DNA from: Rhodocyclaceae bacterium
GTDB taxonomy: Bacteria; Pseudomonadota; Gammaproteobacteria; Burkholderiales; Rhodocyclaceae
DNA: 64,000 nucleotides
NCBI GenBank assembly: GCA_030824115.1
Contig: JAVBYI010000004.1
Span: 248,001-312,000, forward strand
Reading direction: 5' to 3'
The notes under the pieces were generated by a model that did not search any database, was not told the DNA's origin, and was given only the letters and a program-made list of their open reading frames with translations. Below, piece after piece: positions 33,621-49,360 of the stretch. The position numbers were made by a program, and so were the translations under genes. The first letter of the stretch is position 1, and each line of letters begins with the position of its first letter.

Positions 33621-34409
33621 ATGTTGGAACAAACCCCGATAAGAAAGAAAATGGCTGCCAGCCAACCGTTGATCGGCACGTGGAACACGCTGGCCTCGCC
33701 GTTGTTGACGGAAGTGATGGCCAAGGCCGGCTATGATTTCCAGATCATCGACTTGGAGCATGGTCCTTTCGTACTCGATAGCGTTCATCAGTTTGTTTCT
33801 GCATGTGAGGGTACGACCCAGTGTTCGCCGTTAGTGCGTATCCCTGCCAACGAGGACTGGATGGCACTTCAGGCCATGGATCAGGGAGCGCATGGCGTGG
33901 TTGTGCCGCACATTCAGGACCAGGCTTCGGCGGCAAAATTGGCGCGTGCCATCAAATACCATCCGGAGGGCAAGCGTGGATTTACGCCATTTTCCAAGGC
34001 CGGAGGGTTTACCAATCGCAGCACGGCGTCTTACGTTGCGACCGTCAACCGTGAGGGGGTGGGCGTTGCTATCGTCGAATCTCGCGCCGGGCTGGATCAT
34101 GTTGCGGAAATTGCGGCGCAGGATGGCATCGATGTCATTTATTTTGGTGCCTACGATTTGTCGCAGGATCTTGGCCATCCCGGAGACGTGCGTAATCCGG
34201 ATGTGGTTGCCGCCATTCGGCGTGGTGTCGGTGTCGTGACACAACAGGGCAAGTATGCCGGTGGATTCGTGCCGCAGTCGCCGGACGATGTGAAGTGGCT
34301 GCTGGACATGGGTATGCGCTTCATTACCTACGATGTCGATTGTTCTACCGTGTTCCGCAGTGTCAGTGCGGTGACCGACTGGTTTGCGAACGAAACGGGG
34401 AGATCGTGA
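33621..34409 (+). CDS. HpcH/HpaI-family class II pyruvate aldolase
   Basis: 262 aa. All family catalytic residues can be seen: the His in IIDLEHGPF, Arg in PLVRIPANE, Glu in AIVESRAGLD and Asp in FGAYDLSQDLG. The family adds pyruvate to an aldehyde, giving 4-hydroxy-2-keto acids such as 2-keto-3-deoxy sugar acids. AAGAGG upstream marks ATG 33621. Followed at once (TGATG) by a KdsB-like CMP transferase, which is the strongest sign that the aldol product is a 2-keto-3-deoxy-ulosonic acid. No PEP-dependent synthase of the KdsA type is in this module. Confidence 0.88.
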   Translation: MLEQTPIRKKMAASQPLIGTWNTLASPLLTEVMAKAGYDFQIIDLEHGPFVLDSVHQFVSACEGTTQCSPLVRIPANEDWMALQAMDQGAHGVVVPHIQDQASAAKLARAIKYHPEGKRGFTPFSKAGGFTNRSTASYVATVNREGVGVAIVESRAGLDHVAEIAAQDGIDVIYFGAYDLSQDLGHPGDVRNPDVVAAIRRGVGVVTQQGKYAGGFVPQSPDDVKWLLDMGMRFITYDVDCSTVFRSVSAVTDWFANETGRS

Positions 34410-35164
34410 TGGCCCGGAAAGAAAGAATTGTGGCATTGCTGCCGGCTCGCCTGGAGTCAAGCCGGCTACCACGAAAGGCGCTTGTGGATATTTGCGGTTT
34501 GCCGATGGTTGTTCATGTCTATCGGCGCTGCCTGATGGCGAAGACGTTGGACGACGTTTACGTTGCTACGGATAATGAAGAAATCAGGCGCGTGGTTGAA
34601 GCACACGGTGGCAAGGTGATCATGACAGCGTCGACGCATGAGACAGGTACCGACCGGATTGCCGAGGCCGCGGCAGGGATGGATGTGGATATTGTCGTCA
34701 ACGTCCAGGGTGACGAAGCACTGGTAAATCCCGGGCACATCGATGCCGTAGTCGCTGCCGTGCGAGACGATCCGGCGGTTAATGTCGGCATTCTCGTCAA
34801 TCCGTATTTCAAAAGGAATTCGCCTTCGGATATCAAGGCGGTACTTAACGAGAAGAACGATGTGATGTACGTCTCGCGCAATGATATTCCATCGGATGCG
34901 CGCACGCCGAATGCCCCGATGCTCAAGGCCTACCATATCGTGCCTTTCCGCCGCGAATTCCTGCTGAAATATGCTGCATGGGACAAGGGCCGACTGGAGC
35001 GTATCGAGTTCAATGAGTATCTGAGGATACTTGAGAAGGGCTATACAATCCGCGCCGTGCAGGTCGAAAGCGATGCCGTCAGTGTCGATACCGCGCAGGA
35101 TCTTGAGTATGTTCGCTCCATGATGCCGACCGACGAGTACTTTCCGTTGTACGCGAACAAATAA
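34409..35164 (+). CDS. KdsB-like CMP-3-deoxy-ulosonate cytidylyltransferase
   Basis: 251 aa. KdsB signature ALLPARLESSRLPRKALVDI, ATDNEEI, HETGTDRIAEA and VNVQGDEALVNP. KdsB proper (CTP + Kdo) has near-identical motifs, but this copy sits in an accessory module and differs from the consensus at several of them, so its substrate may be a different keto-deoxy acid. The ATG at 34409 overlaps the stop of the aldolase (TGATG). Together with genes 30142-34409 it forms a self-contained CMP-sugar-acid route. Confidence 0.85.
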   Translation: MARKERIVALLPARLESSRLPRKALVDICGLPMVVHVYRRCLMAKTLDDVYVATDNEEIRRVVEAHGGKVIMTASTHETGTDRIAEAAAGMDVDIVVNVQGDEALVNPGHIDAVVAAVRDDPAVNVGILVNPYFKRNSPSDIKAVLNEKNDVMYVSRNDIPSDARTPNAPMLKAYHIVPFRREFLLKYAAWDKGRLERIEFNEYLRILEKGYTIRAVQVESDAVSVDTAQDLEYVRSMMPTDEYFPLYANK

Positions 35165-35186
35165 TTAAGGAACACGGAGTCCCATA

Positions 35187-36839
35187 ATGCGCGTCCTTTT
35201 GCTGTACCCAAATCTCTACGGGATGAATATGCTCCCGCCAGCCATCGGGCTATTCACTGCCATTTTGCAGAACGCCGGCCATCGGGTTGATTTGTTTGAC
35301 ACCACCGTGTATGAGGGCTTGGCGCAGGTCGACTCGGACAAACAAAAGGCAGATAACCTTAATGCCCGTCCATTCGACGACTCCTTGTTGAAAGAAAAAG
35401 CATTGCATTCTGATCCGCTGATGGATTTCAGGGAAAAGGTGTCGTCTTTCGCACCAGACCTGATTGCGATGTCAGCCACGGAAGATATGTACCCAATCGG
35501 CATCACGCTCCTGAAAGCACTTGGTGCGAGTCGGCCAAAGGTGGTCGTAGGTGGCGTATTCCCGACATTTGCTCCGGAGTTGGCGCTACATCACTCAGAG
35601 GGATGCATCGACTATGTGCTGAAGGGGGAAGGGGATGAAACGCTACCGGAACTGTGTCGTCGGCTGGAAGCCGGACTGGATTTGACCACGCTCCCAGGGC
35701 TTCATGCACGCATTGATGGACGATTAATCAACAATCGCTTACCGCAGCCCGTTGACTTGGCAACGCTTCCCTTGCCAGATTATGCGTTGTTCCCGGAAAG
35801 CCGCTACTACAGGCCCATGCAGGGAAAACTCTGGCGGATGTTGCCTGTTCAAACCATTCGGGGGTGTCCCTATACCTGTGCCTACTGCAACTCCCCAACT
35901 CAGACGGACATTCACGAAAAGGAGGACTACAAATTCTTCCGCAAACAACGTATGGACCTGATTAAGGCGGAATTGCGGCGTTGCGTGGATGACTACCAAG
36001 CAGACTCATTTTACTTCTGGGCGGATACATTTCTCGCTTGGAACGAGCGAGAATTTAATGAGTTCTGTGACATGTACTCCGAATTCAAGCTACCGTTCTG
36101 GATTCAGACACGGCCGGAAACTGTCAAGGCCAAGCGTTTCCAGAGACTTAAGGAAGTCGGACTGTTACGGGTGGCGTTTGGAGTTGAGCACGGAAATGCT
36201 TCATTCCGAGAGCGGATTTTGCATCGGCGCGTAAAAAATGAAAGCATCATTGAAAACTTGCGAATCGTGACCGATCTGGATATTCCAATCAGCGTGAACA
36301 ACATCCTCGGGTTCCCTACCGAAACCAGGGATCTGGTGTTTGATACGATTGAACTGAATCGTCACTTTGCCTCGGATGGTATCAATGCCTACAGCTTTAC
36401 CCCGTTTCATGGCACGCCACTACGTGAGTTGTCCGAACAACTTGGTTACATCCAGAAAGGTGAGCTTTCGAGATCGATTGTGGCACCGACCATGTTGAAG
36501 ATGCCACAGTTTTCTAGGGAGGCCATTGAAGGGATTCGGCGCTGCTTTGTGCTCTACGTCAAAATGCCGAAGTCCCGTTGGGCGGAAATCAAACAAGCTG
36601 AGGCGCTAACACCTGAAGGGGATGAGGTTTTCCGCCTCCTCAAAGATGAGTGCCGGGAAAAATACATGCAGCACGGTGACTATGCCAAAGAGGATGATGT
36701 TGAAAAGGTCGACTTTGCCCGGGATTCAGCGCCTGATGGTTTAGGTTTGCCACAGGATTCGCCAAATTTCGAGAGTATTCTTCGCGCGCATGAACGGCAA
36801 GTATCTGATCAAGAGCAAGCCATAAAGTGGGTGAAGTAG
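35187..36839 (+). CDS. Radical SAM protein with N-terminal B12-binding-like domain
   Basis: 550 aa. An N-terminal Rossmann domain (VLLLYPNLYGMNMLPPAIGLFTAIL, with PDLIAMSATEDM) of the cobalamin-binding type lacks the usual DxHxxG histidine: the loop reads VDLFDTTVYEG, so cobalamin, if bound, would be base-off without that ligand. The radical SAM motif is CPYTCAYC near residue 230, followed by FYFWADTFLAWNEREF and IPISVNNILGFPTETRD. This architecture includes many methyltransferases and rearranging enzymes (for example BchE, PhpK and GenD1 types). Function unknown; placement after the ulosonate module suggests a sugar substrate (inference). Confidence 0.82.
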   Translation: MRVLLLYPNLYGMNMLPPAIGLFTAILQNAGHRVDLFDTTVYEGLAQVDSDKQKADNLNARPFDDSLLKEKALHSDPLMDFREKVSSFAPDLIAMSATEDMYPIGITLLKALGASRPKVVVGGVFPTFAPELALHHSEGCIDYVLKGEGDETLPELCRRLEAGLDLTTLPGLHARIDGRLINNRLPQPVDLATLPLPDYALFPESRYYRPMQGKLWRMLPVQTIRGCPYTCAYCNSPTQTDIHEKEDYKFFRKQRMDLIKAELRRCVDDYQADSFYFWADTFLAWNEREFNEFCDMYSEFKLPFWIQTRPETVKAKRFQRLKEVGLLRVAFGVEHGNASFRERILHRRVKNESIIENLRIVTDLDIPISVNNILGFPTETRDLVFDTIELNRHFASDGINAYSFTPFHGTPLRELSEQLGYIQKGELSRSIVAPTMLKMPQFSREAIEGIRRCFVLYVKMPKSRWAEIKQAEALTPEGDEVFRLLKDECREKYMQHGDYAKEDDVEKVDFARDSAPDGLGLPQDSPNFESILRAHERQVSDQEQAIKWVK

Positions 36840-36860: not shown

Positions 36861-38681
36861 ATGAAACTGACTATATGTCATCCATCCGCACTAAAAGAAA
36901 ACCTTGCTGGCTGTGGTCATTGGGCTTATCTCGACAGTAGTTTCCAGGAATACGAACGTGTGCGACTCACGCTTGGAGAGCAAGCTACGCCCCTTTGCTC
37001 CCCGCAAGCGTTTCAGGATCACGTGGCAGCATCGAGACGTGAAATATCAGCTTGGATTGATGATAACCTGATTGGTAGCGATGGAAACTCGGTGTTGCTT
37101 ACACCGCTTACCAGAAGTCCCTTTTCCCCATTGTTTTCAGAGCTGGTTTGGTTACGTGTGATTGATAACTTTCTTATTCACCAACCTAATAACTTGCTTG
37201 TCATTACCGGCTCCATTGGATTAACCCGGGCCTTGGAGAATCATTGTCAGGCAAAAGGGATATGCTGTTATCGTGTGGGATATCCTCACCTGTTCGCTAC
37301 CATTGCGAAACGTAGAGTGCGTTCGTTGTTGAAGTTTTGTCGGGATTTGGTGCATGCGGGAGTAAAAGCTGTGCTTGCTCGACAATTGCTTGGCAAAGCT
37401 CAAATTCGAAGGGTTCTTGACGCTGACATTCTTGTTGATACTTACCTGTATCCATCCGATGTCAAGGCTGATGGGGCTGTGATACACAGATACTACCCGG
37501 GCTTGATCGACTGGTACTTGGCTCGGGGGCATAAGCCAGCCTATCTTCCCACATTATTCCGCGTACCCTTGCGACAACTGCCCGCCTTGTACCGAGGCTA
37601 TCGGAGTAGTCAATACTTGTTCGTTCCGATGGAGTTGTTTCTTGGATTTTCAGACATCGTTTGGGGGGTAACTAAAGTCGCCACTCGGGCTCTGACGGGC
37701 TCCAAACTACCCCGCCCTTTTATTTTCGGGCTGGATATGTCTGCGATTGTCGAGGCCGAATCATGGGGGGCTGGCATTGAGGGATTACCGCAGATGTTGA
37801 CTAAGCGTGCCACGAAATCAATGGTGGAGGCTGGTATGCATCCCAAATGGGTACTTGATTGGTTCGAGAACCAAAGCATAGATCAGGCCTTGGCAATTGG
37901 CTTTCGCGAAGCACTTCCGGATTGCAGGCTTATTGCAATGCGGCTTTATGCCCAATACAGCAGTAACCTGCTGAGCTTCCAGGTGACAAATCGTGAAAGG
38001 GAGCAAGGCTTGGTGCCTGATGAGCACTGGATGGGTGGGGAGGCTTGGCTTGATGTTGCAACCAGACTCGATTCGCATGGTGGATATAAGGTTGTACCAA
38101 ATCTGCGTTCATCATACCTTTACAAGCAACAGGTAATGCTTGGCGAAGGCGACGATCTGCTGGTTCTGCTTACCCATTCATTGCAGGATACCGTGCAAGT
38201 TCTGGTATTAGTTGGAACCCTATTGCCGGTACTTGAAAAATTGTTTCCGGTGATCAGGATCAAGCCCCACCCTTCTCTGGGACGTGATCAATTGAAAAAG
38301 GTGATGTCTGACGATGAGTACCGTGACCTGTTTTTGTCAAGGGCGATCTCATGGGAGGAGTCGGGGATTTCTACATTGATGGCGAAAGCACGTTTGGTGG
38401 TTAGTGCAGGGACCAGCTCCGCAATTGAAGCTGTTGCCATGGGAAATCCTGTGGTATTGGTCGGGGCCCAGGTGGGCATTGATATGTGCCCACTTGAGTT
38501 TGTAGATAAAACGATGTGGCGGATCGCATATGATGCCAATCAACTGAAAGAGGCGATTCTGGCGTGGTCTCCAGATCACCCACTTTCTAGAGTTGAAAGA
38601 ATGGAAATTGGCAGAACAATTTTGAAAAAATGTTACGCGCCAGTTTCGGAAGCTGAAATGGAAAAATTCTCTCTTGAATAA
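36861..38681 (+). CDS. Large TagF-like surface-glycan protein, unknown specificity
   Basis: 606 aa, soluble. The N-terminal ~370 residues match nothing I know. The C-terminal part shows FPVIRIKPHPSLGRDQLKK followed by ARLVVSAGTSSAIEAVAMGNPVVLV, the His/Arg phosphate-binding and S/T-SSxxE signature of TagF-like and capsule GT-B proteins. Third of a set with 7733 and 26807. Because it follows the CMP-keto-acid and radical SAM genes and precedes rfbG, it is a candidate transferase for that ulosonic acid or for a CDP-sugar (inference). Confidence 0.5.
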   Translation: MKLTICHPSALKENLAGCGHWAYLDSSFQEYERVRLTLGEQATPLCSPQAFQDHVAASRREISAWIDDNLIGSDGNSVLLTPLTRSPFSPLFSELVWLRVIDNFLIHQPNNLLVITGSIGLTRALENHCQAKGICCYRVGYPHLFATIAKRRVRSLLKFCRDLVHAGVKAVLARQLLGKAQIRRVLDADILVDTYLYPSDVKADGAVIHRYYPGLIDWYLARGHKPAYLPTLFRVPLRQLPALYRGYRSSQYLFVPMELFLGFSDIVWGVTKVATRALTGSKLPRPFIFGLDMSAIVEAESWGAGIEGLPQMLTKRATKSMVEAGMHPKWVLDWFENQSIDQALAIGFREALPDCRLIAMRLYAQYSSNLLSFQVTNREREQGLVPDEHWMGGEAWLDVATRLDSHGGYKVVPNLRSSYLYKQQVMLGEGDDLLVLLTHSLQDTVQVLVLVGTLLPVLEKLFPVIRIKPHPSLGRDQLKKVMSDDEYRDLFLSRAISWEESGISTLMAKARLVVSAGTSSAIEAVAMGNPVVLVGAQVGIDMCPLEFVDKTMWRIAYDANQLKEAILAWSPDHPLSRVERMEIGRTILKKCYAPVSEAEMEKFSLE

Positions 38682-38682
38682 C

Positions 38683-39774
38683 ATGCTGAAATTGTTTGAC
38701 GGTAAAAAAGTTCTCGTGACAGGCCATACGGGTTTCAAGGGTTCCTGGCTTGTGGCGTGGCTGCGGCAATTGGGCGCTAAGGTGGTGGGTATTGCGCTGG
38801 ATCCACCATCGAAACCATCCCATTTCGAGGCGGCATCTCTTGGAACCAGTATCGAGGACAATCGTCTGGATATCCGCAACCGGGATTCCCTGAAGGCGTG
38901 CATTGACAATGCGGCCCCTGACTTTCTTTTCCACTTGGCTGCTCAGCCCCTCGTCCGCCGATCTTACGCTGACCCTGCCGAAACCTACGAGACCAATGTG
39001 ATCGGAACGCTGAACGTACTGGAGGCCTTGCGGGGATTGGATAAATCCTGTGTTGCGGTTTTCATTACAAGCGACAAGTGTTACGACAATATTGAATGGG
39101 TTTGGGGCTACCGGGAGACTGACGCTCTCGGTGGGCCGGATCCCTACAGTGCCTCAAAAGGGGCGGCGGAACTTGTAATCCGCTCCTATGTGAAGTCATT
39201 CTTTCCGGCGGCCTCATCTAAGGTGCGTATCGGCGTGGGCCGTGCCGGCAATGTCATCGGCGGTGGTGACTGGGCGGATGACCGCATTGTTCCCGACTGC
39301 GTGCGCGCTTGGTCAGGTGGCCAAGCCGTCGCATTGCGCAACCCGCAAGCCACGCGTCCTTGGCAGCATGTGTTGGAGCCCTTGTCCGGCTATTTGACCT
39401 TGGCAGCTGCACTGCATGAGCGGCCGGAGCTTCACGGCGAGCCATTTAATTTTGGGCCGCCTGCCCATCAGAACCATACGGTCCTCGAGCTTGTTAAGGG
39501 AATGAGTCGTCACTGGGACAAGGTACGCTGGGCGGATATCAGCGGTACCCAGACAGGTCCCTATGAGTCCGGTTTGCTGAAGCTCAACTGCGACAAAGCG
39601 CTGCATCAACTCAGATGGCAGGCGATCATGAACTTCGAGGAGACTGTTCGAATGACGGCCGAGTGGTACCGGACTTTCTACGAAGGCCATCAGGACATCG
39701 GTGCTGTTACTCGTGCTCAAATTGAACGCTATACAATCGCTGCAGCAAGCGCTGGCCAGGCATGGGCTCAATAA
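38683..39774 (+). CDS. rfbG: CDP-glucose 4,6-dehydratase, RfbG
   Basis: 363 aa. Extended SDR with VLVTGHTGFKGSWLVAWL (NAD site), HLAAQPLVRRSYADP, FITSDKCYDNIEW, GADPYSAS-like GGPDPYSASKGAAE and RAGNVIGGGDWADDRIVPD: these are the standard RfbG features. It converts CDP-glucose to CDP-4-keto-6-deoxyglucose. RfbF, the matching cytidylyltransferase, is at 41390. The ATG follows the previous stop by one base. Confidence 0.93.
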   Translation: MLKLFDGKKVLVTGHTGFKGSWLVAWLRQLGAKVVGIALDPPSKPSHFEAASLGTSIEDNRLDIRNRDSLKACIDNAAPDFLFHLAAQPLVRRSYADPAETYETNVIGTLNVLEALRGLDKSCVAVFITSDKCYDNIEWVWGYRETDALGGPDPYSASKGAAELVIRSYVKSFFPAASSKVRIGVGRAGNVIGGGDWADDRIVPDCVRAWSGGQAVALRNPQATRPWQHVLEPLSGYLTLAAALHERPELHGEPFNFGPPAHQNHTVLELVKGMSRHWDKVRWADISGTQTGPYESGLLKLNCDKALHQLRWQAIMNFEETVRMTAEWYRTFYEGHQDIGAVTRAQIERYTIAAASAGQAWAQ

Positions 39775-40193
39775 CCCTCGACGATATCCTGGTGACGCCG
39801 CTGCGGCGCATCGCGACCCAGGGCGGTGACGTGATGCATGCCATGAAGCGGACTGACCCCGGCTTTGTGAACTTTGGTGAGGCCTATTTTTCCTGGATTG
39901 AGCCTGGCGCAGTGAAGGCTTGGAAGCTGCATACGCGCATGACGCTGAATCTGGTGGTGCCGGTGGGAGCGGTGCGTTTCGTCTTCCACCTGCCTGATGA
40001 AGGCTTCCGCATTGAGGAGGTTGGGGCGGCTAAATATGTTCGCCTGACCGTGCCCCCGGGTATCTGGTTTGGCTTTCAGAGTCGGGTGGATGGGTCAAGC
40101 CTTCTGCTTAATCTGGCAGATATACCGCATCACCCCGATGAAGTGATCCGCCAAGACGTTATTGATATTCCCTTTAATTGGCAGTCTTCATGA
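39762..40193 (+). CDS. RmlC-like cupin, putative keto-sugar epimerase/isomerase
   Basis: 143 aa, short for RmlC (~185 aa). Cupin strands WIEPGAVKAWKLHTRMTLNLVVPVGAVRFVFHL and a C-terminal PPGIWFGFQS are those of dTDP-4-dehydrorhamnose 3,5-epimerase-like proteins. The single His in WKLH lies where the catalytic His of RmlC is found. Overlaps rfbG by 13 bases. It probably acts on CDP-4-keto-6-deoxy-hexose as an epimerase (3- and/or 5-position), but specificity is not readable. Confidence 0.75.
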   Translation: MGSITLDDILVTPLRRIATQGGDVMHAMKRTDPGFVNFGEAYFSWIEPGAVKAWKLHTRMTLNLVVPVGAVRFVFHLPDEGFRIEEVGAAKYVRLTVPPGIWFGFQSRVDGSSLLLNLADIPHHPDEVIRQDVIDIPFNWQSS

Positions 40194-40266
40194 TGCTTGC
40201 CATTTCAACCAAATGTTTTTCTAGTCGGCCAGATATTATTATGGCGCTGCAGAACTGGACATCGAA

Positions 40267-41382
40267 ATGATTCGACTCTCGAAGTCATTTGTCGGACAGG
40301 CAGAAATTGATGCTGTAACGGCAGTCTTGGGAAGGGGCTTTCTCGGTATGGGGGAAGAGGTGGGGCGTTTCGAAGAGGAGCTCTCTACCTATCTTGGCGG
40401 GGCTAATCAGGTTGTCTGCGTCAATACCGGAACGGCTGCCTTGCACTTGGCGCTCCAGGCGATTGGAATTGGTCCTGGCGATGAGGTTTTGGTTCCTTCG
40501 CTTACTTATGTTGCCTCTTTTCAGGCGATTTCTGCGACAGGGGCTGTACCTGTCGCTTGTGATGTTAGAGAACAAGATGGCCTGCTTGATCTCGATGATG
40601 CGAGGCGTCGGGTTACGACTAGGACAAAGGCAGTGATGCCCGTCCATTACGCTAGCTTTCCGGGAGACATACAAGGCATCTACGGATTCGCTAAGGAGTT
40701 TGGGTTACGTGTAGTGGAAGATGCAGCCCATGCGTTTGGCTGCCGCGTTGAAGGCAGTTATGTCGGCAATTTTGGAGACGTCGTTTGTTTCAGTTTCGAC
40801 GGAATTAAAAACATAACCTCAGGTGAGGGTGGTGCGGTCAGCAGCAGTGATGAGGTTGTGTTGGAGCGCATCAGAGATGCCAGATTACTTGGCGTCACCC
40901 GTGACTCAGAGCGCCGCTATCGTGGCGAGCGCAGTTGGGATTTTGATGTAACTCATCAAGGCTGGCGTTACCACATGAGTGATGTCATGGCTGCCATAGG
41001 CCGCGTACAGTTGAAGCGATTTGAATCAGAGTTGGCACCTAAACGTATTTCGCTAGCGAAGAGATATCGGTTACAACTTCAAAGTGTCCAGGGACTGCGT
41101 TTGTTCAGCAATGATGTGGCCGGCGTTGTGCCGCACATATTGCCTGTCCGTATTCTGGGGGGGCGTCGAGACGAGGTTCGTATGGCCTTGGAGGCTGCTG
41201 GAGTTCAGACAGGGATTCACTACAAGCCTAATCATTTATTGACTAGATTTGGTGCTGGAAAACAAAGACTGCCAGTGACCGAAAAGCTATATTCTGAGTT
41301 GCTAACCCTACCACTACATCCCCAAATTGAATTGGCTGATTGCGAGCATGTCGCAGCAGTGATGAGTAGCGTTTTGAATTAG
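40267..41382 (+). CDS. DegT/DnrJ/EryC1/StrS-family PLP aminotransferase
   Basis: 371 aa. Standard motifs: CVNTGTAALHLALQAIGIGPGDEV, PSLTYVASFQAI, PVHYASFPGD, EDAAHAFGC and PLP Lys in SFDGIKNITSGEGGAV. It is not RfbH: that [2Fe-2S] 3-dehydrase is longer and lacks the PLP Lys. Sitting between rfbG and rfbF it probably aminates the CDP-4-keto-6-deoxy sugar at C4 (inference). That would supply the amine to be acylated by the ACP module downstream. Confidence 0.85.
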   Translation: MIRLSKSFVGQAEIDAVTAVLGRGFLGMGEEVGRFEEELSTYLGGANQVVCVNTGTAALHLALQAIGIGPGDEVLVPSLTYVASFQAISATGAVPVACDVREQDGLLDLDDARRRVTTRTKAVMPVHYASFPGDIQGIYGFAKEFGLRVVEDAAHAFGCRVEGSYVGNFGDVVCFSFDGIKNITSGEGGAVSSSDEVVLERIRDARLLGVTRDSERRYRGERSWDFDVTHQGWRYHMSDVMAAIGRVQLKRFESELAPKRISLAKRYRLQLQSVQGLRLFSNDVAGVVPHILPVRILGGRRDEVRMALEAAGVQTGIHYKPNHLLTRFGAGKQRLPVTEKLYSELLTLPLHPQIELADCEHVAAVMSSVLN

Positions 41383-41389
41383 GAATGAA

Positions 41390-42163
41390 ATGAAGACAGT
41401 CATACTATGTGGCGGCCTGGGTACGCGCCTATCTGAAGAAACAGTCATTCGTCCAAAGCCTTTGGTAACGGTTGGCGGTCATCCTATACTTTGGCATATT
41501 CTCAATAGTTATGGGAACTTTGGCTTTAATGAGTTTGTCTTGGCGCTTGGTTATAAGGGCGAAGCAATAAAAAAGTACTTCCTGAATTACTATTCGCTTG
41601 ATAGTGATCTGAGAATCGATCTTCGGACGGGCGCAGTTGAACACCTTCGAGAATGTCCCCGTGATTGGCAATTAGATTTGATTGATACAGGAGATCAATC
41701 TATGACCGGGGGGCGGCTACATCGCTTGGAGGCTTTATTGCAGCCGCAAGGGACTTTTATGCTGACTTATGGTGATGGGGTCGGAGATGTGGATATTGCG
41801 AAATTACTCTCGTTCCATCGATGCCATGGCAAGTTGGCTACGGTAACAGCAGTGCGTCCACCGGCAAGGTTTGGCGGTATGGTGTTTGATGGCGACCGGG
41901 TGGCCGAGTTCCTGGAAAAACCTCAGACAGGAGAGGGCTGGATTAATGGGGGATTTTTTGTCTTTGAGCCGCAAATCTTCGACTACCTTGATGGAGACTC
42001 GACGGTACTTGAGGGAGCTCCATTAGAAAATTTGGCACGTGATGGACAACTCATGGCCTACAAACATGAGGGGTTCTGGCAATGTATGGATACGGTTCGT
42101 GATCGCCAGTTACTGGAGAGTTTGTGGGCAGGTGGGGCTGCACCATGGAAAACTTGGAAATAG
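41390..42163 (+). CDS. rfbF: Glucose-1-phosphate cytidylyltransferase, RfbF
   Basis: 257 aa, the usual RfbF length. Nucleotidyltransferase signature ILCGGLGTRLSEETVIRPKPLVTVGG, WHILNSYG, FVLALGYKGEAIKKYF and GWINGGFFVFEP, plus CMDTVRDRQLLESLW at the C-terminus. Makes CDP-glucose for RfbG. Starts 8 bases after the aminotransferase. Confidence 0.94.
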   Translation: MKTVILCGGLGTRLSEETVIRPKPLVTVGGHPILWHILNSYGNFGFNEFVLALGYKGEAIKKYFLNYYSLDSDLRIDLRTGAVEHLRECPRDWQLDLIDTGDQSMTGGRLHRLEALLQPQGTFMLTYGDGVGDVDIAKLLSFHRCHGKLATVTAVRPPARFGGMVFDGDRVAEFLEKPQTGEGWINGGFFVFEPQIFDYLDGDSTVLEGAPLENLARDGQLMAYKHEGFWQCMDTVRDRQLLESLWAGGAAPWKTWK

Positions 42164-42187: not shown

Positions 42188-43192
42188 ATGAGCAGCATAG
42201 TCACCCACGCTAATACAAGTATTCCCGGCGATCTTGAAAGTGAAAGAGCCGTGATCGGTTTGCATACGCCGGTAGTTAGCATAATCATGAATTGTTACAA
42301 CGGTGAAGCTTACCTGCGAGAGGCTATTGACAGCATTTACGCTCAGTCTTTTGAAGACTGGGAAATCATTTTCTGGGACAACGCATCAACAGATAATAGT
42401 GCTAATATTGCCAATAGCTATGACAAGAAACTAAAATATTTCCGTGCTGAAAGTACCACCTCATTAGGGGCGGCTAGAAATCTTGCATTGTCAAAGGCAA
42501 GCGGAGAATTTATAGGATTTCTGGATACAGATGATCGATGGTTGCCATCGAAATTGGAAAAACAAATCTCACTGTTTCAAAGTAACAATCAACTGGGCAT
42601 TGTGCATTCAGATGTGTTATGTCGAGATGAAATGTCAGGCAAGAGTTATGGGCACTTTGCCAATCTTGGACATGAACCAGAGAGGGGTAATATATTCCAG
42701 TATTTGCTCATGAATAATGCGATTGGAATGCAGTCTGTCGTGTTACGTAAGAAGGCATTGCTGGAGCAGGATACCTGGTTTGATGAGCGCTTCGAGATAT
42801 ACACAGACTTTGACTTGTTTCGTCGTATTGCACATGATTGGCAGGTCGATCATGTACGCGATATCTTGGCGGTATATCGCATTCATGAGGCATCCTCTAG
42901 TACCAAATTTCACTCGAAGGCAGCAGATGAGTTGGCACTAACACTTGAAAAATTTAGAAAACTCTATCCGGAATTTGATGGGCTATATCAAAAGGAAACC
43001 CGATATTTGGAGGCCATGGTTTGCTTTCAGCGAGGAAAGTCTTTGTGGAGATCCGGTCAATCAGCAAATGCTCGTAGAGAATTCCGCAAGTTCCTGACCG
43101 TTCCGAAAGTGCTGCTTGCCTATTTTTCTTCGTACTTTCCATACTCGTTAGCAATATCCGTGAGTAGGAGGCTATCTAAAGGAAGTGAATAG
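42188..43192 (+). CDS. Family 2 glycosyltransferase
   Basis: 334 aa. GT-A fold at residues ~28-240: VSIIMNCYNGEAYLREAIDSI, WEIIFWDNASTDNSANIA, ARNLALSKASGEFIGFLDTDDRW with the DxD motif. The N-terminal ~25 residues before the fold are a short extra segment. Adds a sugar from a nucleotide donor to the growing lipid-linked glycan at the cytoplasmic face (family knowledge). The base composition becomes more AT-rich from here to ~49 kb. Confidence 0.9.
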   Translation: MSSIVTHANTSIPGDLESERAVIGLHTPVVSIIMNCYNGEAYLREAIDSIYAQSFEDWEIIFWDNASTDNSANIANSYDKKLKYFRAESTTSLGAARNLALSKASGEFIGFLDTDDRWLPSKLEKQISLFQSNNQLGIVHSDVLCRDEMSGKSYGHFANLGHEPERGNIFQYLLMNNAIGMQSVVLRKKALLEQDTWFDERFEIYTDFDLFRRIAHDWQVDHVRDILAVYRIHEASSSTKFHSKAADELALTLEKFRKLYPEFDGLYQKETRYLEAMVCFQRGKSLWRSGQSANARREFRKFLTVPKVLLAYFSSYFPYSLAISVSRRLSKGSE

Positions 43193-44142
43193 TGAGCGAG
43201 TTCATGTTTCTACAACACAAAATAACTTCACTGGAAGACGGCGCAGATTACTTTCTCCCAATGGTGAATCGCAGGTGGCTGCAGTTACTTGACCACGATC
43301 CCATATCAGGGTTTCGTATTCGTCCAAGTCTGTCTTTGCCAGCAGATGAGTTAGGATTTTCATTTAACTCCAATAGTCTTGGTCTCAGAGGCCCAGAATT
43401 GGTGAGTGCTGACAAGGTACTATTCGGAACCTCATATGCAATGGGTTTTGCTGTGAATAATGGGGAGAACTGGTGGGATTTAACGTTGAACGACGACTGG
43501 ATCAATTTGTCATTACCAGTAGGGGTTAATCGTATTCGGCAGTTGTATGAGTCCATTTATTGCGGTAAAAGGAAGTTGGCCGTTGTTCTATATCACCCGA
43601 ACTTTTGGCAATATGCAAAACAGTATCTGGCACAATCAACCTCTGGAAAATCTGTAAGCGAATACTTTGGTTGGCAGGTTGATGAAGAATTCTGCCGATT
43701 ACTTCAGGTGAAGACCCTGAGATTGCGTGAGGCTAAGGTTGCTAATGGCCAGGCAATAGCATTTGTAGAAAATGATATTCCCCATTATATGGAGTCGGAA
43801 ATTTATCGGTTCGACTTCGAGCGTGAGAGAGATGTAGTCGAAATGGCATTAGAGCATTGGTGCGAACTGCTGTCCGAATTTGATAGAGTTGTTGTGATAC
43901 GTGGGCGGATGAAGCAGGAACTTTGCCCTGATCAACATCGCACTTCAAAACTTGAAGTTACATGCGCAGAGTTTGATAAAGGATGGCAAATATTTCTATC
44001 AGGTCTTTCTCCTCGTGTTGATAACCTGGAGGCCTATGAGTCCAGCTGTATTGGCTATGAGCACTTCTATCCAGCAGAAGGGCATTGGACAGCTAATGGG
44101 AACAAGGCATTTGCATCCTGGTTCTCGGATTTGAATTTGTGA
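43192..44142 (+). CDS. SGNH/GDSL-like protein, putative O-acyl modifying enzyme
   Basis: 316 aa. Near residue 80 VLFGTSYAMGFAVNNGENW resembles block I of SGNH hydrolases (GDSxxxGxGV) but with Thr in place of Asp. At the C-terminus FYPAEGHWTANGNKAFASWF matches block V (DxxHxxxxGx), with the catalytic His kept and Glu where Asp would be. Block III Asn is not clear. GTG start overlapping the previous stop (TAGTG); ATG 43204 is an alternative. These features suggest a divergent esterase or O-acyltransferase partner acting on the glycan (inference). Confidence 0.55.
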   Translation: MSEFMFLQHKITSLEDGADYFLPMVNRRWLQLLDHDPISGFRIRPSLSLPADELGFSFNSNSLGLRGPELVSADKVLFGTSYAMGFAVNNGENWWDLTLNDDWINLSLPVGVNRIRQLYESIYCGKRKLAVVLYHPNFWQYAKQYLAQSTSGKSVSEYFGWQVDEEFCRLLQVKTLRLREAKVANGQAIAFVENDIPHYMESEIYRFDFERERDVVEMALEHWCELLSEFDRVVVIRGRMKQELCPDQHRTSKLEVTCAEFDKGWQIFLSGLSPRVDNLEAYESSCIGYEHFYPAEGHWTANGNKAFASWFSDLNL

Positions 44143-44152: not shown

Positions 44153-46093
44153 ATGATCAACAAAATAATATCGGATGCTATATATATTCGTACCGTAGAA
44201 GAGAGCCTCTTTCAAATGTTCGAAAGGGGCGAACTCAACGGAACTATTCATGCATGTATTGGGCAGGAAATGAGTGCACTGTCCGTATGCAAGCACTTGG
44301 GATCCTCAGATTTTGTTTTTTCTAATCACCGTTGTCATGGTCACTTTCTTGCTCTGACCGGAGATGATAAAGGATTGATAGCTGAACTAATGGGGCGGCG
44401 AACTGGCGTCTGTGGTGGTGTGGGCGGTAGTCAGCATCTTTTCGTCAAAGACCGCTTTTACTCCAATGGAATCCAGGGTGGGATTGTCCCAGTGGCTATG
44501 GGGCGTGCATTGGCTGAAAAACTGAAGGGCTCTGGCAACATTGGCGTGGTCTTTATAGGGGACGGCACGTTAGGCCAAGGAGTTGTATATGAGTCTCTGA
44601 ATATTATGAGTAAATGGGGTGTGCCTTTACTCGTTGTTGTCGAAAACAATCAATATGCCCAGTCAACTTCCCTGGCCCAAAATCTGGCGGGAAGCATCGC
44701 TGATCGCTTCAAAGCTTTCAATGTTCCGATTTATGAAGGCAGTACGACGGAGTGGCAAGCATTGGCTGAAGAGGCAAAATATGCGATTGATCATGTCCGA
44801 AATACAGTAGGACCTGCCGCACTGATTGTGAACACTTACCGTCTTTGCTCTCATTCGAAAAGCGATGATTGCAGGAGTCAGGAAGAGATTGATTGTTATG
44901 CACTTGTTGACCCGATCAATGTATGGGCTAAAGAAAATCCTGAGTTATTTACCCAAGTTAAAAATGAAGCTGTAAATCGTGTGCAGTCGATGGTTTCCGA
45001 GATAGCTCAGGAGGGCTACCTTGGTTTGGATGAATATTTTGGGAAATCTGATCGGGAATCTCAGATTTCATGGAATGACTTCTTGCCGCTAGAGACACAT
45101 GAGCGCCTGGCTTTGACCCTGAACCATGGGTTCAGTGACATCATGGACGCGAATGACAAAATCTTATTTATTGGGGAAGATGTCAAGTCGCCTTATGGCG
45201 GGGCATTCAAAATTGCACAAGGCTTGAGCGAGCGATTTCCCGATAGAGTATTTAGTACCCCAATCAGCGAACAGGCAATAACCGGTGCAGCTAACGGCTT
45301 GGCGTTGGGGGGGTACCACCCTATCCTTGAGTTCATGTTTGGTGATTTTGTCACATTGGGATTTGATCAAATAGTCAATCACGCATCGAAGTTTCGCCAT
45401 ATGTATAACCATGGGGTAGATTGCCCAATTATTATTAGAGCGCCAATGGGAGGGCATCGTGGCTATGGCCCGACGCACAGCCAGACATTAGATAAATTTC
45501 TGGCTGGTATTGATAATGTTAAATTGCTGGCGCTTAATCTTGCACTATCGCCTCACGATATTTATTCAAAAATTATTGACCATGAAAGAGATCCAGTAGT
45601 CGTGATTGAAAATAAAGCCGACTATGCTAGAAAAATGAATTATGGTGATTATGAAATACTGTCCAACTACCTGCTCTTTAAGTCAGACGCACGTTATCCT
45701 GCGATTCTATTTGAGCCTGTATCTGAGAGTCCAGATGTATGCATCATCACGTATGGCGGGAATATGGATGCGGTGCTACAGGCAGCGCAGATTCTCTTTC
45801 TTGATCATGAAATTTTGTGCAGTGTTCTTGTCCTTACACAAATTTATCCAATTTCACATGATGAGTTGATTGTAAGAGCACCTCGTGTTTATGTCGTCGA
45901 GGAGGGGTCTGTGGGCTATGGATTTGGCAGCGAGGTAGTTGCAATACTTTCTGAGAGCGGAGGGAGGTTTGACAGTCTGATGAGGATAGGGTCGGAGTCC
46001 TTGCCAATACCAGCTGTACGCAGACTGGAAAACCAGGTGCTTGTTGGCGTAGAAAAAATTGTAAACACAATTGCAGGGGATTGTCATGGCTGA
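44153..46093 (+). CDS. Thiamine-diphosphate 2-oxoacid dehydrogenase E1, alpha and beta subunits fused
   Basis: 646 aa. Residues ~1-315 are the E1-alpha domain: NHRCHGHFLAL, GVGGSQHLF, and the ThDP motif FIGDGTLGQG...VVENNQYA. Residues ~320-646 are E1-beta: ILFIGEDVKSPYGGAF, EQAITGAANGLALGGYHPI and the phosphoryl-loop-like APMGGHRGYGPTHSQ. A fused E1 within a glycan cluster is not the housekeeping PDH. A gene for lipoyl E2 follows with an 8-base overlap, then an ACP. Substrate could be pyruvate or another 2-oxo acid, or a ketose phosphate, as in the PDH-like NapB/NapD and QncN/QncL systems that make glycolyl-ACP (established for those; inference here). Confidence 0.85.
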   Translation: MINKIISDAIYIRTVEESLFQMFERGELNGTIHACIGQEMSALSVCKHLGSSDFVFSNHRCHGHFLALTGDDKGLIAELMGRRTGVCGGVGGSQHLFVKDRFYSNGIQGGIVPVAMGRALAEKLKGSGNIGVVFIGDGTLGQGVVYESLNIMSKWGVPLLVVVENNQYAQSTSLAQNLAGSIADRFKAFNVPIYEGSTTEWQALAEEAKYAIDHVRNTVGPAALIVNTYRLCSHSKSDDCRSQEEIDCYALVDPINVWAKENPELFTQVKNEAVNRVQSMVSEIAQEGYLGLDEYFGKSDRESQISWNDFLPLETHERLALTLNHGFSDIMDANDKILFIGEDVKSPYGGAFKIAQGLSERFPDRVFSTPISEQAITGAANGLALGGYHPILEFMFGDFVTLGFDQIVNHASKFRHMYNHGVDCPIIIRAPMGGHRGYGPTHSQTLDKFLAGIDNVKLLALNLALSPHDIYSKIIDHERDPVVVIENKADYARKMNYGDYEILSNYLLFKSDARYPAILFEPVSESPDVCIITYGGNMDAVLQAAQILFLDHEILCSVLVLTQIYPISHDELIVRAPRVYVVEEGSVGYGFGSEVVAILSESGGRFDSLMRIGSESLPIPAVRRLENQVLVGVEKIVNTIAGDCHG

Positions 46094-47255
46094 GCTAGGA
46101 CGTATTGAGATCCCCAGTAAGTTTCCAAACGATGAGAGCGTTACTGTTGTTAATGTCCCTGCAAAATCTGGCAACCATGTACGAAAAGGGGAAGTACTGG
46201 TCGATGTGGAGTTCTCAAAGGCAACAGTGGAACTGGAGTCACCCTGTGATGGCTATGTAGCACTGCTTTATGGCTTGGGGGATGAAGTGTCTATCGGCAG
46301 TCCCGTAGCCATCATTTTCTCAGAGCAGGAGGAAGCAGTAGGTCTAGATATAGAGAAGGGACGCAAATCTCTGGTTAAGGGTACCCCCCTTGCAGGCGAG
46401 AGGAAATTGAGTAACTCACCACCCCCTGCTCATCATTCGCATTTGCCTTCCTTGGATATGAAGGCTGTACAGCCAAGCAAGACGATACAGCTTTTTTCTC
46501 GAGCAGCGCTGTCCAGGCTAAATGAGTTAGGCAGAAGCGTAGATGAGTTCTCTGAGAAGCCTTTTATCCGACTTGCGGATATTGAGGGGAACAGTGGTAA
46601 AAGTGCGGCCACTGCAGAGGATGACTCACCCCTTGTGCCATCCTCGAAAGAAAAACTTTCTGCTCTTAAAGGGGCGGAAATTGCCAACCTCATGGCTGGT
46701 CAGAACACGATCACGAGCAATTTCCAAAAGACAATCAACATGCCGTTGCAGGACATGTCGGCTAGTGTTGGTACCGCATTCTCTTCAATGCTTATCGTCC
46801 CAAAGATTCTCAAGCAGTGCAGCAGGCTGCTAAAAGAGTTTCCTTTACTTAATGCATATTTAGGCAGTGGTGTAATCAATGTCTATGAAACAGTTAGCAT
46901 CGGATACGCAATTGATTTGGGGAGTGGACTGCGCATTTTGTCACTAGGAGATGTTGAACAACTTGATGAAAATGAAATCAAGATAAAAATATCCGCAGGA
47001 GTTAAAGCTTACATGATGAACCGCCTTGATCCAAATGAGGCCAGACGGTCAACTTTTATAGTGACTGACTTGTCTAATGAGGGCGTTGATTACTTTGTTC
47101 CCCTGCTGGGGAAAAATCAAAGCGCCACCCTCGGTATATGTGCGGTAGATCCGACAGCGGGTTCCGTAAAAGTGTCGCTCACTTTCGACCACAGGGTAAC
47201 TGAGGGACGCATGGTGGCTAATTTCCTTCGTCAGATGGCGACAGGGCTGACTTAA
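46086..47255 (+). CDS. Lipoyl-dependent 2-oxoacid dehydrogenase E2-like acyltransferase
   Basis: 389 aa. Lipoyl domain at residues ~1-80 with the lipoylated Lys in VEFSKATVELESP; peripheral subunit-binding region near residues 140-175 (FSRAALSRLNELG, ADIEG); catalytic domain from ~215 with a PLQDMS strand and the final motif FDHRVTEGRMVANFL. The standard E2 motif is DHRxxDG; here Asp is replaced by Glu. The start ATG 46086 overlaps E1 by 8 bases and follows CAGGGGA. No E3 gene lies next to it. It probably passes the acyl group from lipoate to the ACP encoded next rather than to CoA (inference). Confidence 0.82.
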   Translation: MAELGRIEIPSKFPNDESVTVVNVPAKSGNHVRKGEVLVDVEFSKATVELESPCDGYVALLYGLGDEVSIGSPVAIIFSEQEEAVGLDIEKGRKSLVKGTPLAGERKLSNSPPPAHHSHLPSLDMKAVQPSKTIQLFSRAALSRLNELGRSVDEFSEKPFIRLADIEGNSGKSAATAEDDSPLVPSSKEKLSALKGAEIANLMAGQNTITSNFQKTINMPLQDMSASVGTAFSSMLIVPKILKQCSRLLKEFPLLNAYLGSGVINVYETVSIGYAIDLGSGLRILSLGDVEQLDENEIKIKISAGVKAYMMNRLDPNEARRSTFIVTDLSNEGVDYFVPLLGKNQSATLGICAVDPTAGSVKVSLTFDHRVTEGRMVANFLRQMATGLT

Positions 47256-47282
47256 ATTTAACTTTGGTATATTCTAAATATT

Positions 47283-47513
47283 ATGACTGAACAAATGGTA
47301 ATTGAAAAGGTTAGTGAGGTATTTGAAATCCCGATCGGGGATATATTTATCGACTCGACGCCTCAGACGCTTAAGAACTGGGATTCATTGCGACATATGA
47401 AGTTGATGATTGTATTGGAAATGGAGATCGGGAAGGAAATTCCGGCCGAGCAGATTATTGAGATGCTATCCGTGCGTAAAATTATCGAAGTTGTGACTGC
47501 GCTCTCTGCCTGA
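47283..47513 (+). CDS. Acyl carrier protein
   Basis: 76 aa, acidic, four-helix ACP. The phosphopantetheine Ser lies in NWDSLRHMKLM near residues 36-46, matching the DSL motif; it is followed by the usual EIGKEIPAEQIIEM helix. Begins 27 bases after the E2 gene and one base before the GNAT gene, so the acyl group is likely carried as an ACP thioester from E2 to that acyltransferase (inference). Confidence 0.9.
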   Translation: MTEQMVIEKVSEVFEIPIGDIFIDSTPQTLKNWDSLRHMKLMIVLEMEIGKEIPAEQIIEMLSVRKIIEVVTALSA

Positions 47514-47514
47514 A

Positions 47515-48366
47515 ATGGCTCTTGCGATTCGAGCAGCATATCCGGAAGACAGAGAGCTAATTCTTCCATTACTTACGAAACTCAATCCTGACGTTGCCTG
47601 GGGTCCGCTATTTTCAAGATACTGGAATGTTGCTGAGGATTGGATAGGATATGTTGCTGAGGCTGATGGACGAGCGGTAGGGTTTCTTGGTGTTATCTTT
47701 TCACGAAGAGTAATTGATGGCAAGGAATTGAAATTCTGTAATACAACCAGCTGGATAGTTGATGAAGAGTTTCGGATGTGCAGCCTTGCATTGTTGGGGG
47801 CTGTAATGCGGTTGCGCGATTATCAAATAATCAATCTTTCAGCTAGTGAGGCGGTCTGCCAGATTGTGAGTAAGCTTGGATTCAAAAAACTGGACTCTGC
47901 CCTCTGTATTTGTCCTGCTGTTCCATCAGCTAAAGGATTTATCCGTGGAATGAGTATAAAGATCATTCAGGAGGCTGGCAATGTCAGGGGACATCTTAAT
48001 CAGGATGACCGCAGAAAGTGCGATGATCATATAAGCACAAGTTGTCAGCATATTTTGTTGATGGATGGCACGTGTTACTGTTATTTGGTCGGTTCACGTA
48101 TTATTAAATTCGGGATGCCATTCTTCCGGATTCATTACATAAGTAATGTCGATATTCTTGCCAGAACAATAGGATGGATTCGACTCAGGCTGTGCTTTAT
48201 GGCAGGCGCCATTGCGCTCGTGTTTGATGAGCGCTTTCTGAAAGAATATAAGATTCAACTGTCACTTCGCCATGAGTTACCATGGCAGAGGTTGTACAAG
48301 GGCGATGCGATATCACCAGATGAGTTGGATAATTTATATTCAGAGTATACGGTTTTGCGAATCTGA
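47515..48366 (+). CDS. GNAT-like acyltransferase, likely acyl-ACP user
   Basis: 283 aa, longer than a single GNAT domain. Residues ~1-150 have a GNAT look (AIRAAYPEDRELILPLLTKL, AVGFLGVIFSRRV, VCQIVSKLGFKKL), while residues 150-283 are a less clear second half that may be a degenerate second GNAT fold. Start one base after the ACP stop. Adjacent ACP and E2 suggest that it moves an ACP-bound acyl group to an amino sugar such as the product of the CDP-sugar aminotransferase at 40267 (inference). Confidence 0.6.
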   Translation: MALAIRAAYPEDRELILPLLTKLNPDVAWGPLFSRYWNVAEDWIGYVAEADGRAVGFLGVIFSRRVIDGKELKFCNTTSWIVDEEFRMCSLALLGAVMRLRDYQIINLSASEAVCQIVSKLGFKKLDSALCICPAVPSAKGFIRGMSIKIIQEAGNVRGHLNQDDRRKCDDHISTSCQHILLMDGTCYCYLVGSRIIKFGMPFFRIHYISNVDILARTIGWIRLRLCFMAGAIALVFDERFLKEYKIQLSLRHELPWQRLYKGDAISPDELDNLYSEYTVLRI

Positions 48367-48367: not shown

Positions 48368-49360
48368 ATGCCCAAGTCTGGAGCGCTAGTTATTTCGATT
48401 GATTACGAACTCCTATGGGGGGTTCGTGATCATCTGACAGCTACATCTTGCTATGCACAACAGAATATTCTTGGGGAACGGGTTGCTATTCCAAGGCTGC
48501 TTGATTTATTTGATGTATATGGGGTGCGTACAACATGGGCTGTAGTCGGGTTGGCATGTTTAGGTAAATCGAATGATAGAGTCGGACTCGATCCACTGAT
48601 AAAGCCAGATTACAGGAATAAGATGTTGTCTCCTTATTTGGAACTAACAGGTACCAGCGAAACTGATGACCCTCTACATTTTGGGGAATCCATGGTTAGG
48701 CAGGTAATGTCGCGTAATACCCATGAGATAGCATCACACACATATTCTCATTATTACTGCATGGAACCAGGGCAAGATAAAGAGTCCTTTGCCGCTGACT
48801 GTAAGGCATTTTCGGCCGTGTCCTCCAAAATGGGCTTCCGTGCCAGATCAATCGTATTCCCTAGAAATCAGTCAAACCCTGCCTATACAGGCACCCTATT
48901 AGCGGAGGGTATTGATACTTATAGAGGAAACCCTGCTCACTGGGCTTACGCTTCGGTAGCATCTGCTGGTCAGGGAATAGTTCGACGTGCAGCAAGGTTG
49001 ATTGATGCCTGTTTGCCTATCGGAGGTGACCGAACATACGGCTGGGATGCAATTGAAGAGCCAAGTGGAATGAACAATGTGCGTGCTAGTTTTTTCCTTC
49101 GCCCGTCCCGGCATCAGTCAGGGCTCCTTGACGGTGCCAGAATCAGCCGCATAAAGAAATCGATGCAGCATGCTGCAAAACAGGGGCGCTTAGTTCACCT
49201 TTGGTTTCATCCGCATAATGTTGGCGTTGATATCGACGCCAACATTAGCAACCTGACATGCCTCTTAGATTACTTCTCAATGCTGAAAGAACAATTTGGC
49301 ATGCTCTCTCTCACGATGGCGGATGTGGCTAGTCGTAAGACTTCAAGTATTGCTACTTAA
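48368..49360 (+). CDS. Polysaccharide deacetylase family protein (CE4/NodB-like)
   Basis: 330 aa. Metal-ligand pattern of the NodB fold: ISIDYELLWGVRD near residue 12 and HEIASHTYSHYYC (H-x3-H) near residue 122, then VFPRNQSNPAY and LVHLWFHPHNVG supplying the late catalytic His. No signal peptide, so it is probably cytoplasmic and acts on nucleotide- or lipid-linked sugars. Start ATG 48368 comes one base after the preceding stop; the longer frame from 48272 would overlap the acyltransferase by 95 bases. Confidence 0.82.
   Translation: MPKSGALVISIDYELLWGVRDHLTATSCYAQQNILGERVAIPRLLDLFDVYGVRTTWAVVGLACLGKSNDRVGLDPLIKPDYRNKMLSPYLELTGTSETDDPLHFGESMVRQVMSRNTHEIASHTYSHYYCMEPGQDKESFAADCKAFSAVSSKMGFRARSIVFPRNQSNPAYTGTLLAEGIDTYRGNPAHWAYASVASAGQGIVRRAARLIDACLPIGGDRTYGWDAIEEPSGMNNVRASFFLRPSRHQSGLLDGARISRIKKSMQHAAKQGRLVHLWFHPHNVGVDIDANISNLTCLLDYFSMLKEQFGMLSLTMADVASRKTSSIAT

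Follow-up and report, generated by a model that had tools for sequence, protein, structure and literature searches.

The acyl groups of surface sugars determine their antigenicity and charge; to our knowledge, the enzymes known to acylate sugars take the acyl group from acetyl-coenzyme A (CoA) or from acyl carrier proteins (ACPs) of the fatty-acid type. In Nod factor synthesis the deacetylase NodB, the N-acyltransferase NodA and the special ACP NodF act as a set. In the pathways to naphthyridinomycin and dnacin, NapB/NapD-type proteins are said to make a hydroxyethyl unit from xylulose 5-phosphate and to pass it to an ACP (excerpts of PMC7570522 and PMC9268379; see also PMC8648761). The pepteridine locus plu2792-2799 encodes an E1 and a fusion of E2, carrier and condensation (C) domain, and feeding of pyruvate or 2-oxobutyrate links a carrier-bound acyl group to the amide (excerpt of PMC5384830). 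Here we analyze a 64,000-nucleotide stretch of a Rhodocyclaceae genome, the window, in which genes for a fused thiamin diphosphate (ThDP)-dependent E1, a lipoyl E2, an ACP and a GNAT-like protein follow one another inside a glycan locus. Most likely the product of this four-gene module is an acyl-ACP, from which the GNAT transfers the acyl group to an amine that is probably part of the glycan; the more general statement, that the module supplies a surface glycan with an acyl thioester for amide bonds and needs no acyl-CoA for this, we regard as probable.

The Module and Its E1 Family

The acyl-ACP/GNAT reading rests on the clade of the E1, a loop at its catalytic histidine, the partners encoded beside its relatives, and the neighbourhoods of the GNAT family. 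The four genes (Table 1) are real and intact, with their open reading frames (ORFs) confirmed at the coordinates given in an earlier, sequence-only description of this DNA (the original prediction). That description of a fused alpha-beta ThDP E1, a lipoyl E2 and an ACP with a DSL serine, in genes overlapping or 1-27 bases apart, is borne out: the gaps are -23, +27 and +1 bases, and Pfam places E1_dh (5.6e-39), Transket_pyr (9.2e-25) and Transketolase_C (2.8e-10) on the E1 and a lipoyl (1.3e-9) and a catalytic (1e-23) domain on the E2. Glu373 of the E1 (at 45269) is presumably the catalytic residue. The E2 has its lipoyl lysine, Lys50, at 46218, the catalytic motif DHRVTEG with His374 at 47190 and, judged by eye, a probable subunit-binding stretch. 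The ACP carries the motif WDSL (Ser35 at 47385) and is divergent, with no match in Pfam and weak matches in NCBIfam, the best at 3.7e-4.

In a tree of 52 E1 proteins, a 100/100 branch splits 31 family members from 21 generic E1s. The window E1 groups with those of loci L065, L089, L090 and L091 (99/98), and RenH of the renieramycin symbiont stands beside L066 and L067 (100/97) inside the 31-member family. The tree omits L012, L013, L014 and L094 (incomplete or redundant) and the generic L026, L027, L030-L032, L034, L035, L037, L039 and L042 (incomplete or near-copies). The family is also marked by the loop RGYG[PA]THSQ at the catalytic histidine, which we take to be the equivalent of human beta-His128: it occurs in all 33 family E1-beta sequences in which the loop was read (35 loci, L012 and L014 ending before it), while RGYG occurs in none of the 30 generic E1-beta sequences read (31 loci, 28 distinct). 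The window E1 has this loop as GGHRGYGPTHSQ, with Arg436 at 45458 and Tyr438 at 45464. Searched against plasmids by tblastn, the window E1 found RenH as its best match (45% over 645 residues), itself a fused E1 followed by the E2 RenI, and then E1s of Streptomyces and Streptantibioticus clusters for nonribosomal peptide synthetases (NRPS) or polyketide synthases (PKS); seven relatives at 40-52% were found on genome contigs.

Members of the family occur in several phyla. When the full E1 was searched through the class at 1e-85, two of 369 genomes matched, that of the window and G458. Because such a search can miss split E1 genes, an E1-alpha alignment was used for later surveys; across 399 genomes of the window's own order it scored two at 472 and 518 bits and three at 301-307, with every other place listed at 251 bits or less, so that the family can be separated from ordinary E1s by score. 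At 1e-85, family members were present in 9 of 299 genomes of the same phylum (window included), 5 of 296 in the phylum of a Rhodothermaceae genome and 4 of 171 in that of a Caldilineae genome (each including that genome), and 8 of 61 in family f224. The full E1 had no match at 1e-60 in the 18 same-genus genomes listed, no relative was found on viral contigs, and phage records gave 24 matches, all below 60% identity (best 10 of 24 listed).

Partners Encoded beside the E1

In 32 of the 35 loci the DNA that follows the E1 is readable (L012-L014, at contig ends, are omitted from these counts and L011 is counted as L051); three of them are NRPS/PKS loci, leaving 29 others. A lipoyl protein was read downstream of the E1 in 30 of the 32, the exceptions being L091 and L093. 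Thirteen of the 29 have a sugar acyltransferase beside the E1, and in 12 of these 13 Pfam shows the lipoyl domain fused to a hexapeptide acyltransferase, six times with a PglD N-terminal domain. L093 is assigned to this type by BLAST to NeuD only, and the acyltransferase half of L064 is NeuD-like below the cut-off (139 versus 161 bits). The lipoyl lysine is kept in 12/12 fusions and the His-Asp/His/Glu/Asn pair of the NeuD/PglD kind, which we assume to be catalytic, in 10/12. No plasmid record covers 80% of the lipoyl-acyltransferase fusion (0/18 and 0/46); in most of the rows listed the acyltransferase half is matched without the lipoyl half.

Seven ACP queries in tblastn gave no ACP match in the 13 acyltransferase loci and detected an ACP or an ACP-phosphopantetheinyl transferase in 15 of the other 16. 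Eight of these 15 are near-copies from f224, and collapsing f224 to one leaves an ACP in eight of nine E2-type loci (L087 and L088 counted apart). An E2 was read in 15 of the 16 and is of the 2-oxoacid_dh type in all seven scanned with Pfam (the window, L009, L052, L065, L087, L088 and L096). In L087 and L088 a single run of genes encodes E1, E2, a methyltransferase-like protein, ACP and GNAT. In L065 (5605-6381), L090 and L091 the gene directly after E1/E2 joins an ACP-like stretch to a phosphopantetheinyl transferase, the transferase part being assigned by Pfam in L065 and the rest by eye.

The original prediction had proposed a search for E1 relatives in surface-glycan loci, and many do lie in sugar loci. 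NeuB, DegT or RfbF/RfbG is found within the stretch examined in 9 of the 13 acyltransferase-type loci: NeuB in L010, L066, L089 and L092, DegT in L010, L050, L066, L067, L092 and L093, and RfbF/RfbG in L051 and L015. L094 and L095 have a GT4 or epimerase-like gene nearby, and L064 and L097 show no sugar marker in the stretch examined. In L015 a glucose-1-phosphate cytidylyltransferase and a cytidine diphosphate (CDP)-glucose dehydratase, both over cut-off, directly precede the E1/lipoyl-acyltransferase set, so a CDP-sugar stays among the possible acceptors. The L089 operon, the clearest case, runs from a cytidylyltransferase (best PseF, 163 bits, below the cut-off of 206) through a NeuB-like synthase (389 bits, just below 400), NeuC (417 versus 236), an E3 (447 versus 409) and a deacetylase (5.9e-14) to the E1 and the lipoyl-acyltransferase; it is a possible hydroxylase-free route to N-glycolyl sialic-acid-type sugars. 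Apparent ABC-transporter genes, recognized by eye, come after it. L092 has a LegC-like aminotransferase (below cut-off), NeuC, a split E1, the lipoyl-acyltransferase, a deacetylase and NeuB.

The GNAT-like Protein and Its Neighbours

We take the GNAT-like protein of the original prediction as a putative, remote GNAT. Acetyltransf_1 is matched by three of the five members of our alignment, weakly (best 0.0038), and by the homologue L119 over the cut-off; the homologue L118 gave no match, nor did the window protein. Members of the family occur in 5 of 200 sampled genomes of the window's order, and carrier-protein machinery adjoins all five. Three of these (the window, G513 and G553) already form part of the query alignment, and their gene lies beside E1/E2/ACP. 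The two that are independent of the query have, in G075, an ACP, FkbH-like, MaoC/short-chain dehydrogenase (SDR) and GNAT genes in a row and, in G523, a CmlS-type halogenase, a phosphopantetheinyl transferase, a condensation-adenylation-peptidyl carrier protein-thioesterase (C-A-PCP-TE) protein and the GNAT. Ten plasmid regions with the GNAT were selected from 50 records, and nine are annotated. An ACP or likely loading enzyme is annotated in four of the nine: a HAD-IIIC protein in Paludibaculum, a ligase and an ACP in Sinorhizobium (S.) meliloti and in Aureimonas, and an adenylate-forming enzyme in Rhizobium. A deacetylase is annotated near the GNAT in Paludibaculum, S. meliloti and two Sulfitobacter regions (4/9), the last two without a loading enzyme. 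From this company we infer that the GNAT would use carrier-protein-bound acyl groups.

In L119:806-9185 and L104:9890-17137 the GNAT family is found near CmlS-type halogenases and NRPS or adenylate-forming enzymes, an arrangement that looks as if the acyl group which the GNAT there puts on an amine were chlorinated. A further family lies next to the GNAT in L087, L088 and f224 (Table 1) and has no Pfam match (L088).

Proposed Mechanism and Acyl Group

In the proposed mechanism the E1, using ThDP, would split a C2 unit, or a larger one, off a 2-oxo donor and load it by reductive acylation onto the lipoyl arm of the E2. The E2 would hand it over to the module's own ACP, and the GNAT would acylate an amine with it. 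The acceptor would be either the CDP-amino sugar that the upstream genes provide or a residue whose amine the deacetylase-like protein exposes. A chromosomal E3 would re-oxidize the lipoyl arm. By analogy with the tetrahydroisoquinoline pathways, the acyl group may be glycolyl (hydroxyacetyl) derived from a ketose phosphate, a tentative guess for which we would not claim even chances; an acyl group from a 2-oxo acid comes next. The guess draws on the clade and loop that the window E1 has in common with RenH, whose own chemistry is inferred, and that common loop is at most consistent with a ketose phosphate donor. The original prediction of an acyl-ACP supply for sugar acylation is upheld in part: its core, a dedicated pyruvate dehydrogenase (PDH)-like supply with tetrahydroisoquinoline-type logic, is well supported by the RenH clade and loop, the sugar loci and the 12 fusions. 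A wider proposal, that the E1 family makes glycolyl or hydroxyacyl lipoate from ketose phosphates in several phyla and that sugar acyltransferases use it through an ACP or through their own lipoyl domain, strikes us as doubtful.

The deacetylase-like gene was absent from the original prediction and lies directly behind the GNAT. Its longest ORF begins at 48272, with the likely start at ATG 48368 directly after the GNAT stop, and the protein has metal-binding-type motifs (SID at 48401, HTYSH at 48737) in a weak profile match below cut-off. Taken with the annotated deacetylases in four of nine plasmid regions, this weak match makes an exposed amine on another residue a possible acceptor. This second option was weakened when the family next to the GNAT in L087, L088 and f224 showed no significant similarity to the window gene, and its grounds are now the window's weak profile match together with the annotations of neighbouring genes in other regions; the overall odds are unaffected, since they rest on the E1/E2/ACP/GNAT part.

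Weighing the Alternatives

Several points count against the acyl-ACP/GNAT reading. Its basis is gene content, clade, motifs, fusions and neighbourhoods, and the reactions are predicted from these. The window GNAT has no match in Pfam up to E 5, so that its identity as NodA is not borne out; its profile has 0 matches in the PDB, and a single-sequence structure model, with a predicted local distance difference test (pLDDT) score of 38, was not used. Neither a loading enzyme nor a deacetylase is annotated in three of the nine plasmid regions (two Shinella, one Roseateles). The deacetylase-like protein reaches 21.8 bits for Polysacc_deac_1 against a cut-off of 23.1 (2e-4), and the family next to the GNAT in L087, L088 and f224 was dropped as its relative when that family's profile, compared with the window gene and six further deacetylases, gave no significant match (best E 0.1). 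L096 has no ACP by the seven tblastn queries, and the closest E1 relatives with an E2 (L065, L090 and L091) have ACP-phosphopantetheinyl transferase fusions. L090 and L091 showed no sugar marker, most such markers are missing from the f224 loci (L052-L054 and L098-L102, eight in all), the majority of which showed none apart from the GNAT, and three clade members, L016-L018, serve NRPS/PKS.

Some of these points would suit the same acyl-ACP machine with a different product, a lipid, small molecule or peptide-like metabolite, the glycan locus being incidental. RenH and the members from Streptomyces belong to NRPS/PKS clusters, the GNAT homologue L119 is beside a C-A-PCP-TE protein and a CmlS-type halogenase and another is in a Rhizobium halogenase cluster, and sugar markers are few in the f224 loci. 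We consider this unlikely, because the window module is flanked by a GT2 gene and by epimerase-like and GT4-like genes (the latter two by eye) and NeuB, DegT or RfbF/G lies near 9/13 acyltransferase-type loci. Less probable again is that the genes encode a conventional 2-oxo acid dehydrogenase in an accessory role, of the acetoin, branched-chain or pyruvate type, that feeds acyl-CoA. The E1/E2 domain content is indeed of the PDH/branched-chain 2-oxo acid dehydrogenase (BCKDH) type, but neither protein reaches a curated equivalog cut-off (best 205 bits versus 393.85 for the E1 and 78.1 versus 445 for the E2), the ACP is dedicated, clade and loop stand apart from ordinary E1s, and no E3 was found in the window, as the original prediction had said, the sole search being a comparison with the L089 E3. 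The genome (3.0 Mb, 24 contigs) has dehydrogenases of its own, with two E3 genes over the curated cut-off outside the window, one after AceE (1525 bits versus 860) and AceF (568 versus 552) and the other downstream of SucA (1168 versus 770); a second E1 of the module's kind is absent from it, a single weak partial match aside. A general dehydrogenase with its E3 in one operon, which the original prediction had named as the finding that would overturn it, is not what the module represents, as AceE/AceF/Lpd and SucA lie elsewhere. Housekeeping PDH was set aside as its identity on the same ground, AceE/AceF/Lpd being over curated cut-offs, and an ordinary acetoin or branched-chain dehydrogenase on the equivalog scores and the distinct clade and loop. 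ThDP enzymes that add C2 branches, of the yersiniose or AviB kind, are known, and the CDP-4-keto-6-deoxysugar set upstream would offer the E1 a substrate for such a branch in place of an acyl group. A lipoyl E2 and an ACP would then be needless, and a lipoyl protein accompanies the E1 in all but two of the readable loci, which leaves this the most improbable of the alternatives.

Surroundings in the Window

The module that we take to be an acyl-ACP supply lies between the GT2 gene on one side and the epimerase-like and GT4-like genes on the other. Between GT2 and the E1 is a 316-residue protein with no match in Pfam or NCBIfam, SGNH-hydrolase-like by eye only. The CDP-sugar set comprises a CDP-glucose 4,6-dehydratase (TIGR02622, 477 bits versus a cut-off of 278), a glucose-1-phosphate cytidylyltransferase (TIGR02623, 355 versus 300), a DegT aminotransferase (Pfam) and, at 39762-40193, a protein without Pfam or NCBIfam match that is cupin-like by eye. 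The module is AT-rich, as originally described: GC content is 0.43-0.47 for E1, E2, ACP, GNAT and the deacetylase-like gene. Twelve other genes are listed between 38674 and 54677; nine of them have 0.51-0.56, and the remaining three, GT2, the gene at 43192 and the cytidylyltransferase, have 0.43-0.48. No NRPS domain was found among 40 window proteins scanned, a subset of the window ORFs.

Table 1. Coordinates of the module, its neighbours and related features (window positions unless a locus is named)
Feature	Position	Strand	Basis or remark
Fused ThDP E1 (alpha 1 to ~310, beta from ~313)	44153..46093	+	Pfam, family motif, tree
Lipoyl E2	46071..47255	+	Pfam; start TTG 46071 or ATG 46086
Acyl carrier protein, 76 aa	47283..47513	+	Weak NCBIfam; WDSL motif
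GNAT-like acyltransferase, predicted user of the ACP-bound acyl group	47515..48366	+	Five-member alignment, homologue L119, carrier-protein neighbours
Weakly polysaccharide-deacetylase-like protein	48368..49360	+	Polysacc_deac_1 below curated cut-off
Protein of unknown family, 316 aa, possible operon member	43192..44142	+	10-base gap before E1
CDP-sugar set, possible source of acceptor amino sugar	38674..42163	+	NCBIfam/Pfam
L089 operon	L089:6710-14916		Each gene overlapping or adjoining the next
Family next to GNAT	L087:13754-14752, L088:14328-15326		Also beside GNAT in L052-L054

Four further features were noted in the window. A HisF-like and glutamine-amidotransferase (HisH-like) pair lies in the glycan locus at 9604-11228, and such pairs occur in acetamidino-sugar pathways. 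A GNAT domain fused to an ATP-grasp domain is encoded at 17116-18633, also in the glycan locus. The row at 30142-36839 (HMGL-like, LdpA-like Fe-S, HAD, HpcH/HpaI aldolase, cytidylyltransferase and B12/radical-SAM genes) is possibly another unusual sugar acid pathway, and at 59964-61505 a surface-adhesin E domain is joined to a eukaryotic-type carbonic anhydrase domain.

Comparison with Known Systems

If these proposals are true, a lipoate-fed supply would link the decoration of glycans to the metabolism of sugar phosphates or 2-oxo acids and there would be a CoA-free form of sugar acylation, in L089-like loci with bacterial N-glycolyl sialic-acid-type sugars made without a hydroxylase; the lipoyl-acyltransferase fusions would be a novel class of enzyme, donor and transferase in one, and the gene sets would help to predict unusual acyl groups from genome sequences. 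Among the matches listed in the open-access literature there was no report of the E1/E2/carrier combination in glycan loci, nor of a lipoyl domain fused to a sugar acyltransferase, and the 'lipoylation' of flagellin glycans in the excerpt of PMC4875605 refers to fatty-acid genes.

NapB/NapC/NapD and RenH/RenI resemble the module in pairing an E1 with a lipoyl E2 (and an ACP in Nap) without a listed E3. RenH shares the 100/100 clade and the loop of the window E1, and the Nap proteins are likened by description. They differ in that the carrier-bound unit enters an NRPS there, whereas here a GNAT and glycan genes follow. Pepteridine synthesis is likewise a 2-oxo-acid-derived amide formation by E1, E2 and carrier, with an E3 thought to be borrowed from the host, but there the acyl group goes to a pterin and a C domain is proposed to form the amide, the likeness being again one of description (excerpt of PMC5384830). 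In the O-antigen genes wfpC-G of Flavobacterium psychrophilum a dedicated ACP and a PglD-type acyltransferase are predicted to N-acylate a UDP-amino sugar, with an acyl group predicted to come from ketosynthase and reductase genes and not from E1 and lipoate (excerpt of PMC6519341). The NodB/NodA/NodF set is alike as a combination of deacetylase, N-acyltransferase and ACP, and differs in its acyl source, in a window GNAT without Pfam family and in a weakly supported deacetylase. Closer to the GNAT are the S. meliloti and Aureimonas plasmids, in which an exosortase-A-associated AMP ligase, a pyridoxal phosphate (PLP) decarboxylase and an ACP form a loading set beside the same GNAT family and glycosyltransferases, in S. 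meliloti with an annotated deacetylase nearby; there an AMP-forming ligase loads the carrier. An E1/E2 pair feeding a carrier protein is thus already known and an ACP-fed PglD-type acyltransferase already proposed (excerpt of PMC6519341), while the direct lipoyl-acyltransferase fusions may be more than a variant of these systems.

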